A DNA stretch of 64,000 nt from Theristus sp. LFF4_11 (lineage: Eukaryota; Nematoda; Chromadorea; Monhysterida; Xyalidae). Both the position numbers and the translations under genes were made by a program. Numbering within the stretch: position 1 is the first letter of the stretch; every line of letters starts with the position of its first letter. The notes beneath the pieces were generated by a model. It made no database searches. It was given only the letters and a program-made list of their open reading frames with translations, and was not told where the DNA came from. Below are positions 8,588 through 17,500 of this stretch, piece by piece. The stretch is taken from contig JASANC010002498.1 of the NCBI GenBank assembly GCA_030248135.1, forward strand, positions 1-64,000, in the 5' to 3' direction.

Positions 8588-11500
8588 TCAGTCATCATCA
8601 ACAGAAACGTTCACATCCGGTGAAGCGGTCGCATCATCAGGCGCCGTCGTTTGCGGGCTCTCAGCGGTTTCAGGGGTCTGCTGCCGGGGAGCGTCCGGCG
8701 GGCGCGGTGTGGTGGTGCGGTCCAAGTCCGGCGGTTCTTGCACCGCCGGCGGACTGGGCGGCATTTTCGACGGGTCGTTATTGGTGTCGTCGTCGTAAAT
8801 GTCCTCTGGTTGTTGATCGGCCGATTTCTCTGGTGCAACAACGTTTCGACGACGCTCATAGGCGCTTACGACGGGCCGGATCAGCCTGATGTTTCACGAG
8901 AGAAAGAGTTTGTTGGATTTTGTTGTGGCTAATTAGAAAAGAATAGCTTAACTTCTTTACCACTACTTTGAATCACACGCGTCACAAAGCCACCATTGAT
9001 GTTGGTTTGGCTTTGGCCGAGTTTTTTTTACTCGAAACAAAAAGCGATACCTACCTACAGTAAAGTCTTGCATTATAAGGTTTCCTTATATAAATTTGAA
9101 AATCAAAAATTTCTGAAAAAAGTGGAATTTTGTGTGACAGCCTTATAAGTAGGAGGAGGTCTTACAAAACGAATATTAGGAAGTCCAGGCCTTATAAACG
9201 GAGTGGGAGTTTGACCAAGTAAAAATTTTAAATTTTTGGTTTCCCGCCGTGCGACACTCTGCTCAATTTTGGGTGGGGTCTTATAAGTGGGAGGAACTTT
9301 ATATGCAAGACTTTACGGTATTTAGTAAGTGCACGTGATAGTCAAAAATTGATTTTAGAGCTCACCAAAAATCGATCAGCTCAATTACGGCAAGGATACT
9401 GGCGCCTAGGAACAGTCCCATGGTGCCACCAATATCGCCTGGAGCAAAAAAAACTTGAATACAGAATAAAAAACGCTGCAAATTTTTATTTTCTAAAAAA
9501 ACTCACACAGTAACGACCAAAAATCGTACGATTTCTTTTGAATGTACTTTTCTTCTGACAAATCTCGATAGTAGATGTTCAATGCAAGCATGTTCGTTCT
9601 GAAAAAGAAACAGAAGCAAAAAGCAATTTATGTTTTGGTAATTTCAAAGTGGAAAAAAGCTGGCAGCAAAAAGCAATGAGTGGCAAAAAAAATTAAAAAA
9701 ACTGACAATAAAAACGCCAGTTGGCTTTACGCCAGCATCAAAAAAACGTGGCCACTAATTTTGCGACTAAAGTGGCTACTAAACGCAAAAACCCTTCCAA
9801 GACGATATAAAAACGCAATAGTGTATTTGTACACTTCAGTCTCTACATCTTTTACACTACAGCATGGCCGAATAAATAAGGCAGCCCGTCAAGGCGGGAT
9901 CAGTCGCAGACTAGCAGTTGTCTTTTTCAAAAATGCCAACATAACTCCTAATCATGTGTTCAAGGGAGCAAGAATGAACATAATAGCACGTAGAATCCAT
10001 TAGTCTAAAAAAAACACGTCAAATTTAGACCACATGTTGGTTTCTGAACGTCTATTTTCTTTCATTCAAATTTCGCGCGCTCCTTGCACCCTGAAAAAAG
10101 CTGCCATGTTTACTCGGTCATTCCGTACGTTACGTATTGTCAATTTAGTTAATTGTCTCTTTAGTAGCCAATTTGCCAGAACACACGTGTAAAACTGCTC
10201 ATCCAGTTTAGCGTGATGCAAGAACTCGCTCGCATAATCGCTCATTTCATTGAACGCATGTCCCAAATGGTGCATCGCCCACGCGATGTCGTGGTCGAAA
10301 TTCACGGCCAATTGAAACGCCTCCGCGATTGCGCAGTTGATCACCTATGAATGTTTGATAGTGGTTGTTTGTCGGGACCGGTTACCGGTTAGAGAGAATA
10401 AGGACGTCAATAAGCAGGGATAACACTGTGATAGACAATTCTGTGCATAAAACTTGTGTCCCCAACCCTCTGAACGTCTACTACTGCGAAGCTCACTCAA
10501 ATTCAATATTTTTCAGCAGTAACCACAAATTGCCAGCAATGACGTGTGTGATTTCTCTGTCTGGCCGGTTCTCATCAACACCCTATACAAACATTATCTA
10601 AAAATGCGGGAGACGCATATAAAAGGAGGAATATGGCCTTGTGTAAGCAGTGAAAGACTTGGCTCGACAACGCTTTTCAAGTCTCTGATGTGGTACACAC
10701 GGATACAAGCACATAAGAGTCATATTTTTGCGCCGCGTTTGTTGTTTAAAAGCTTGCTGAGAAGCGTAAAAACTTTGAAGTTATGTAGATATTTTTCAAT
10801 TGTCCTCTTCAGTTTAGTCTAAAATCACATCATGTGCGAAATTCTGTACAGCATGGCCGAATAAATGAGGCAGTCCATCAAGGCGGGATTAGTCGCTGAC
10901 TAGGAGTTGTCTTTTTCAAAAATCCAACATAATTTCCAATCATGTGTGCAAGGGAGAAAGAATGAACAGAATAATACGGATAATCCATTAGTTCAAAAAA
11001 ACGCGTCAAATTTGGCATACAATTTGGTTTCTGAACTTCTTTTTCTTTCATTCAAAATTCGCGCGCTCCTTGCACCCTGAAAAAAGCTGCCATGTTTAAT
11101 CAGCTATACTGTAAATTCTGTGCAAAAAAACAGAAACATCAGAGATTGCAAAACATTGCTGCATGTAGCTTTATCGTTGTTGCTAACGTACGCACCGCTG
11201 TGCATACAGCAGCACCAGTGCAAAAAGTGTTGTCTTCCGTTGATTTTCACCCTTTTTACCAAACTCTTGTGACAGGATAAACCGGTGAGTCATTGCCACA
11301 GAAGGAGACCTTGCGTTCCCAATGCCTCTGCGATACACTTTGTGCAAACCAATCTCAGCGATCTAAAGTCTGATCGTTATTTTAGTGGTTTTAGAGGTCG
11401 CTAAATGCTAGAAAAAAGCAAATGTGAAAGTTTCATTTGTCTACAATGTACGAGGGTTGCCACTTGCAACCGAAATAAAGAATAAACGGCGCAAAAATAT

Positions 11501-14500: not shown

Positions 14501-17500
14501 TTCACACAACAAAGGCATTTTTTCTGGGACGTACTTGTCGTGGACGCAGTTGTCGTGGTTGCGTTACCTCTTGCTGCCTCCGCCATGACTTTTGTGCAGT
14601 GCGTGACGATGATCTGTAGAAAGGGCAACCTCTGCTCATGTTGGAAATTTGGAATTATGCCATTGATGGAAGTTGGAAGTCGCAATAAAAAAGCCCAGAA
14701 ATCGCCCGATCCGACCACCTAGAACAGTCAAGCTCCAGCCTTAGTTTTTGAGCGTGTGAATGTCGAACAAATAAAACCAATTAAAATATACTTCAGATAT
14801 TGTGCGCAAACCTAAAACCTGACACCTGTACATTTATAAGACCTGGACGGAATATGTTTGGTTCTGTTTTTTTTGTCGACATTGCTCAAACATATGAACG
14901 TCACAGGAGCCACACTCGAACTCTAAAACATAGGGAATCAGCTGATTGGTTGGTTATCGTGATGCATGTATTCTGTGCAGTCCAAACCTGCACAGAAACC
15001 ATGCATACCGTAATCGCTATCAATCAGATGATTCCCTATAATTTTGAGTTGGACTGTACTTCATTGCAGTCGTGCTGTGCCTCGGTGCCGAACTGTTCGT
15101 GTCCCATCATTTGTACGGCCAACAGAAACGGAAACCGCGAATCGGACGCCGCCAGTTGCAGCGTGTCCAGCAGCATGCTCTTCGTTGACATCCACTCTTC
15201 CAGCGCCTCGTACCAAACGTGCTTGCCGTGTTTCATTGCGCCGAGTTTGTTCAGAAACTGAAATAGTACAGCTTTGTTTTCTCGCAAATGAAAAGTCACC
15301 CTTAACTTAAGGTAAAGCTAGGCGCCCGAGCCTGAGCTAGAGACTAGCCTCTGAGCCCTAGTTTGAGCCAGAGCCTGAGCCTGAGCCTGAACCTGAGCCT
15401 GAGCCAGAACCTGAGACTGAGTCTGAGACTGAGTCTGAGCCTGAGCCTGAGCCTGTGTCTGTGCTTGAGCTTGAGCTGAAGCCTGAGCCCAATCAACTGG
15501 TAACCTTTTTATTTACCGTTTGATATTCCGTCATGAAGAATGCGTCGTATTCAGCAATTAATTCAGCCAACTGGGTCACCGTTTCAGAGCCGTTAATGTA
15601 CATGACAGCGTAGTCGATCATTTTCATGTAATCCTAAAAAAGTAGATGATTGAATGATTGACTGATTGACTGATTGATTGATTGATTGATTGATTGATTG
15701 ATTGATTGATTGATTGATTGGTTGATTGATTGATTGATTGATTGATTGATGGATTAATTGATTGATTGTTTGTTTGATTGATTGATTGATTGATTGATTG
15801 ATTGATTGATTGATTGATTGATTGATTGATTGATTGATTGATTGATTGATTGATTGATTGATTGATTGATTGATGAAATTATGTAACTTGTAAACTTTGG
15901 TCTTTTAAAAATTCCAAAACCGCACCCTGCTCCCTGACTGACTGCAGATCTAACCAGTCACCGGATCTAAAACAAATCGCCACCACTCAAACAACGTGTC
16001 TACCTCAAAATCGTGATGCAGTTCAATTTCGTAATGGCCCGGATCAAAGTAGACGAACAAATCAGCCAACGCCACGACGGCCGTGTGGAACAATTCATCG
16101 GACGCTGCCAGCGCCGTTTTGTTGCTGTGTGTTTTTGAAAGTTTCGAAACAAAATACCATCAGAAGATTTGAGAGAACATTTTACGAAACACTTCATGTT
16201 ACTCATATGAGTGTGTCCGTTTTTTTACACACCAAAAATGGCTTTTACACCACAAATTTTTTACACAATGAGTTCACAGTTTTTTTCACACAAAAAATGT
16301 CCGGTGTCCTGTCTGAATGTGTGTCCCGCGCAGTGTCCGTGTATCGAATCTAAAAGTGGCCCTAAACTTCGAGTGCGGTATTGTCACTTTCATTTCCGGA
16401 ACACCACGCTAAACACCCAACCGGACAGGACACCGGAGCGGACAACTTTTTTTTAGCGTAATACACCTCTCAATGAGCTCATTGTATCTGGACAGCAACT
16501 CATCGGCATCCATTTTTCCTGTCTGCAACGCTCTTAAGTGAACCGTGTCCGAAAGTCGATCCATCGCGGCGCCGTGGCCTTCGGGGCCGAAGAAGTGAAC
16601 GAGCGCATCGAAATCGGGCGAATCATGGATTGCACTATAGCAGGACATCTGACGAATGAGCAGAGACGTGAGAACATAATTTTTTCAATAATACCGTTGA
16701 ACTCGACGTCTGATTGGATCACAAGCTTTCTGTGCAGGACAGACTCCGCCCCACCCCCCAGCAATGCTGCACAGAAAGCATGCAGCACACGTATCACCAA
16801 CCAATCAGCTGGATTATTGCTTATAATTTGACTGTAGATGAAATTGTGATAAAAGTTCTAGTCCGAAGGCGGTGCACAGTACACTGTCACACATTCACCA
16901 TACAAACACACGGGCACACAAACACTTTGACACCGGCGCTGCTGTGTAACACACGCTGGTGTGCCTGTGTGTTTGTTTGTCACTGTGCAACCAGAACGGA
17001 TTCACATCAACAAACCCCTTTGATCCGGTCAATGCTCTTCAATAGATTTGCTTCCGTCGGCTGCATGCCTTTCTGTTTCAACTGCGACGTCGCCTCAAGG
17101 TAGCCGTTCAGAATGGCGGATAGTTCACGCTTGTAGTTCGGCTGAATCCTGCGTCTGGCCTCGAGCGATTCGAGAAATCTGAAATTGTAAAAAAAAATTA
17201 TGTCTTTTTGCGTATGAACTGTCGGATTTATTTGGTGGGAAGCAATAGGCTGACGTAAACTATGGTCTGAACATGATACACTCATTCATAGTAATGCAGC
17301 ATACTCACAAACAAACACACCGGCACAAGCAAGGTGGTATTACAACTGGAGTTGCGGTTGTAACACGCCAGAAAGCAGAACACAGCTTGTTTCTGTAAAC
17401 CTGACACTATTTTAGCAGATACAGAGTACGCGAAACCTTGAATTTAAAAAAAACCTGAACTGAAACCGGGTTAGGTCAGGAATAGGTCAGGGGAACGCAG

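Follow-up and report, generated by a model that had tools for sequence, protein, structure and literature searches.

We analysed 64,000 nucleotides of the nematode Theristus sp. LFF4_11 (contig JASANC010002498.1, positions 1 to 64,000; hereafter the window) and found, on the minus strand, 20 exons between 22902 and 8588 that join into one open frame of 918 residues encoding a DEG/ENaC protein. Residues 388–765 of this protein are the product of eight extra exons (17178–10187). With moderate confidence, we read the locus as one intact gene for an ASIC-like DEG/ENaC subunit, to whose ectodomain about 378 residues are added as an acidic and mostly α-helical domain. This domain would be looped out between α6, the helix after the SLS strand, and β11 of the palm.

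Channel identity

The protein matched the Pfam ASC family (1e-65, 223 bits) in two stretches, the larger of which covered residues 1–359 of an 887-residue model and so took in the channel as far as the insert. Two membrane stretches, 29–47 (mean hydrophobicity 2.69) and 804–822 (2.17), flank one large ectodomain. An HG motif before the first transmembrane segment (TM1) and a GAS motif in the second (TM2) are DEG/ENaC motifs; here they occur as TSLHGF in exon 1 and FLGAS in exon 19. There are 15 Cys from TM1 to the insert, and several line up with Cys of ASIC1. The insert-free form, 509 residues from TM1 on, aligned to ASIC1 over about 410 residues, from TM1 to TM2, with an E-value of 1.1e-34. 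The nearest PDB sequences were ASICs, which took the top 15 of 33 places (some under older names), and the best non-ASIC was ENaC gamma (2.3e-23); closeness to ASICs was judged against solved structures only, few of which are invertebrate. On these matches, membership of the DEG/ENaC superfamily is secure. The nearest solved relatives by alignment are the ASICs. Another DEG/ENaC channel or a second insert in the 64-kb window was considered and set aside, as tblastn beyond the modelled exons had three matches, none better than E 0.23.

Position of the insert

In the insert-free alignment with ASIC1 there was no gap at the junction; one single-residue gap was located before it. The strand after the junction is NILVLDIFF in ASIC1 and NMLALNIYY in the present protein. 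As no gap falls at the junction, the insert is an addition and the host fold loses nothing. The initial annotation had set the insert at the linker of about 25 residues that follows the SLS strand and leads to the next one, but this linker is complete and aligned to ASIC1, and the insert comes behind it. The piece around the junction matched 29 PDB sequences, of which 25 span the junction (two of them barely). Across these, the length of the match deviates by no more than 7 residues, so a large insert at the junction occurs in none of those PDB sequences. We know of no DEG/ENaC member with a large insert at the α6–β11 junction.

By this alignment the insert is placed between helix α6 and strand β11 of the palm. 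In the ASIC fold, the turn between the two presumably lies in the knuckle, on top of the ectodomain and beside the finger of the neighbouring subunit. The knuckle is far from the wrist and thumb, though near TM2 along the chain. We therefore place the insert, as probable, in the knuckle and not near the wrist or thumb as first proposed. As the insert lies between TM1 and TM2 without membrane-grade hydrophobicity (its best 19-residue stretch reached 1.24, against 2.69 and 2.17 in the transmembrane segments, and no membrane helix was found in it), it is probably extracellular, as the initial annotation had also held.

Gene model

The splice sites were picked by eye and then checked by script, and every modelled intron has GT...AG borders. 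The window holds spliced genes and has a GC content of 0.44. The insert of 378 residues lies between exon 9 (donor phase 2) and exon 18 (acceptor phase 2). The initial annotation had described eight extra in-phase exons at 10187..17178 encoding residues 388–764; the coordinates agree to the base with the present model, which ends the insert at residue 765. The chain of insert exons stays in frame with the flanking channel exons, and "in-phase" holds in this sense of frame continuity, since the single exons are not all symmetric. The main ground for choosing exon i6 was that it carries the phase correctly from i5 to i7 (0 to 1). The 20 exons are as follows.

Exon 1: 22811..22902, minus strand; ATG, N-terminus and HG motif (TSLHGF), donor phase 2
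Exon 2: 21724..21891, minus strand; TM1 and start of the ectodomain, Pfam ASC
Exon 3: 21231..21404, minus strand; ectodomain, finger region judging by order
Exon 4: 20602..20726, minus strand; ectodomain
Exon 5: 20271..20353, minus strand; ectodomain, GIYMLLNLE
Exon 6: 20030..20128, minus strand; ectodomain
Exon 7: 19862..19940, minus strand; ectodomain
Exon 8: 18811..18939, minus strand; Cys-rich part
Exon 9: 18248..18458, minus strand; SLS strand and next helix (α6 equivalent), donor phase 2
Exon 10: 17016..17178, minus strand; insert exon i1
Exon 11: 16467..16648, minus strand; insert exon i2
Exon 12: 16004..16124, minus strand; insert exon i3, sequon NKT, narrow coding lead over the opposite strand
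Exon 13: 15517..15633, minus strand; insert exon i4, sequon NGS
Exon 14: 15060..15257, minus strand; insert exon i5, long helix of low confidence when folded alone
Exon 15: 14568..14613, minus strand; insert exon i6, 46 bases, weakest coding score
Exon 16: 14240..14388, minus strand; insert exon i7
Exon 17: 10187..10344, minus strand; insert exon i8, single 48-residue helix when folded alone
Exon 18: 9507..9598, minus strand; β11 strand (NMLALNIYYRDL) and pre-TM2 segment, acceptor phase 2
Exon 19: 9366..9438, minus strand; TM2 with GAS (FLGAS)
Exon 20: 8588..8885, minus strand; cytosolic C-terminus and stop

Coding potential of the insert exons

Coding potential was scored as codon log-odds. 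The training set consisted solely of eleven channel exons (501 codons), with neighbouring DNA assumed to be non-coding as the background. All eight insert exons were positive in the predicted frame, with 21.8, 20.2, 13.6, 10.2, 34.7, 3.9, 18.8, and 20.6 bits for i1 to i8, respectively. The predicted frame was the best of six for every one of them, and its lead was wide in six. The GC content at third codon positions was 0.59–0.73 in the insert exons and 0.72 in the training channel exons. An exon-chain search charging 12 bits per exon gave a best chain of 54.2 bits in the 8.6-kb interval, with four of the eight insert exons exact, two partial, and i4 and i6 omitted. Controls reached a maximum of 1.8 bits in 40 Markov sequences and 16.7 bits on the opposite strand. 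Eight other combinations of end phases scored 43.5 to 54.0 bits, so the chain score hardly favours phase 2–2.

A separate gene on the same strand could be nested between exons 9 and 18, with the channel transcript skipping it. The open run-up to i1 starts with an ATG, and the channel lacks nothing when the eight exons are removed. However, the 35-codon run-up scored −19.1 bits and the 40-codon read-on from i8 scored −15.2 bits, both clearly non-coding, and the read-on runs into a repeat element (9858–10112) with at least four copies in the window. As both end phases also fit the channel exons, a single gene is favoured and we consider a nested gene improbable.

The eight exons may instead form an optional cassette. 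Most of the gene's product would then be an ordinary ASIC-like channel, with exon 9 joined to exon 18, and the long form would appear in some tissues or stages only. As the exon 9 donor and the exon 18 acceptor are both of phase 2, the short form is in frame, and its alignment to ASIC1 is that of a whole channel. The insert donors are also weaker at position +5, as is often the case in regulated exons. Against this, roughly a third of blocks would have matching phases by chance, 26 of the 256 exon subsets (full and empty included) keep the frame, and joint skipping of eight exons would be unusual. We regard the cassette as possible but doubtful. Since the exon 9–18 junction is in frame, a transcript of that kind would point to an optional cassette and would not refute the insert.

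Several points weigh against the favoured reading of one intact gene with an inserted extracellular domain. The coding lead was narrow in two exons: i3 scored 13.6 bits against 10.8 on the opposite strand, and i6, of 46 bases, 3.9 against 2.2 in another frame. As a harsher control, the window was cut into 23 overlapping intervals equal in length to that of the insert, and the best-scoring of three phases was taken in each; scores ranged over 5.1–54.8 bits on the plus strand and 38.1–199.2 bits on the minus strand. As plus-strand values rose to 54.8, the chain score is not decisive by itself; we read the high plus-strand scores as the shadow of coding exons on the minus strand. A G at donor position +5 was present in three of the eight insert exons compared with 10 of the 11 channel exons (Fisher p 0.04), which could reflect either regulated splicing or a few misplaced donors. 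The 20-exon model comes from genomic sequence, and the extracellular exposure of the insert is deduced from topology. Finally, a protein search with residues 330–790, the insert and its neighbours, turned up no relative that shares the insert, and no DEG/ENaC, among the 7999 candidates listed for scoring. Searched by itself, the channel part likewise had no hit at E 0.01 (809 candidates), so the protein database evidently holds no near DEG/ENaC; these searches count neither for nor against the reading and are uninformative for animals.

Nature of the inserted domain

The insert has a mass of 42.8 kDa, an isoelectric point of 4.85, and a net charge of about −30 at pH 7 and −3 at pH 5. It contains 21 His and six Cys, and its two sequons are NKT (503) and NGS (556). 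Its hydrophobic moment at 100 degrees topped all 1000 shuffles (z 3.8), with no such excess at 170 degrees; in the channel part the 100-degree moment was not significant, as 124 of 1000 shuffles reached it. A simple propensity count gave a helix fraction of about 60 per cent. From its composition and periodicity, the insert is predicted to be mostly amphipathic-helical, and the helix-forming composition and sequons described in the initial annotation were thus recovered. Folded alone, i8 gave one 48-residue helix (predicted local distance difference test score, pLDDT, 91) and i5 a long helix (pLDDT 64), both being single-sequence fragment models and weak evidence.

The initial annotation did not recognise the fold, and the profile search that it proposed agreed with this. 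The insert matched no Pfam or NCBIfam family at E ≤5, and PDB sequences gave no convincing relative, the matches to designed TPR proteins being weak ones added together. These matches, to insert residues 332–371 (best whole-sequence E 0.0014), together with the helix-rich composition, would suit an origin by capture from a soluble protein of a helical-repeat solenoid, TPR-like or other. However, no single stretch of the TPR matches passed E 10 alone, and no Pfam family supported a solenoid. Internal repeats were not above shuffles, as the observed score was reached by 28, 35, and 61 of 200 shuffles under three gap settings. The i8 stretch was also predicted, from its single sequence, as one continuous helix and not a hairpin. 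We consider such a solenoid very improbable.

Other candidates were tried and set aside. A Pfam match to UvrD-helicase (E 0.05) was taken as chance, its 13.7 bits falling short of the cut-off of 23. The i3–i4 and i8 stretches looked alike by eye, but the best self-alignment scored 45, no better than shuffles (mean 38.6, maximum 57, n = 60). Pattern scans for prokaryotic or viral origin, which have low sensitivity, gave 20 and 2 stretches, none of them confirmed. Rfam gave 0 matches at gathering score.

Possible function

If the favoured reading of an intact channel with an added helical domain is right, this domain would stand at the apex of the trimer, stalked or packed, beside the finger domains. 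Its two sequons suggest that it could be N-glycosylated. It may bind an extracellular partner, a ligand, matrix, or protons. The domain connects straight into β11, which runs down to the β11–β12 linker and TM2, and this linker is the moving part in ASIC desensitisation. Strain from binding or protonation might then pass through β11 and the β11–β12 linker to the gate and bias gating. As the host fold is intact, gating should in principle still be possible. We would lean towards a part in binding or sensing over that of a mere spacer.

A more specific proposal combines this mechanism with the optional cassette. Depending on whether the eight-exon block is included, the gene would yield either a plain ASIC-like channel or one that bears a new acidic helical receptor domain at the knuckle, which would sense protons, ligand, or tethering force and act on the gate through β11. 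We put this forward as an unlikely, though specific, scenario.

Other features of the window

Several introns of the gene hold repeats. Repeat DNA at 10593–14087 makes up most of the i7–i8 intron, and a second copy lies at 49998–52836. The copies of this repeat of about 3 kb are 97 per cent identical over one 920-base stretch, with related DNA at 291–1071 (80 per cent). It holds tandem arrays of 149-base (8.4 copies) and 172-base (4.4 copies) units, and an inverted pair (10593–10748 with 11629–11476). The element of about 250 bases that the read-on from i8 enters occurs at 9858–10112, 10847–11098, 22296–22535, and 50252–50507, the later copies being 86–89 per cent identical to the first. The i3–i4 intron contains a TGAT microsatellite of 57 copies (15647–15874) and the i4–i5 intron a TGAGCC array of 21 copies (15364–15489). 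A duplicate of about 460 bases, 90 per cent identical, lies in opposite orientation at 19155–19611 and 35254–35710.

The Pfam scan also covered ten other open frames of the window. The segment 26567–26851 (minus strand) encodes the C-terminal portion of a protein with the actin fold (Pfam Actin 2.5e-07), which we take to be most like actin-related protein 10. A weak match to TRAPPC9/Trs120 (E 0.02, under the Pfam cut-off) was seen at 44776–45120, minus strand. Coding-chain scores on the minus strand at about 37.5–55 kb were the highest or among the highest in the window (up to 199).

Comparison with known channels

ASIC1 (PDB 9e4a, 2qts), ASIC2 (6l6p), and ASIC5 (9mky) share with the present protein the TM1–TM2 channel part, the SLS strand, helix and next strand across the junction, and the HG and GAS motifs. 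They differ in having no large insert at the junction, where the lengths vary by at most 7 residues, compared with 378 residues here. The ENaC subunits (PDB 6wth, 9blr) belong to the same superfamily and match much of the ectodomain (gamma: query residues 104–428 of 509), but they too have no large insert at this junction. ENaC has a glycosylated loop after α6, and its GRIP inserts lie in the finger and are smaller than the present one. The FMRFamide-gated FaNaC channels (PDB 7yvb, 8on7), invertebrate peptide-gated members of the superfamily, were best matched around TM2. Their ligand site is in the finger, and to our knowledge they have no helical block at the knuckle. Nematode channels of the EGAS and MEC-4 type are DEG/ENaC channels with extra extracellular modules, either EGF-like or a short regulatory region, located elsewhere in the ectodomain than the present insert.

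Known DEG/ENaC diversity lies mainly in the finger and thumb. In the present model, about 378 residues would be added at the knuckle to an ectodomain of roughly equal size. If true, this would be another site where the DEG/ENaC fold accepts a sensor-sized domain, and it would make possible a direct test of communication between the upper palm and the gate.

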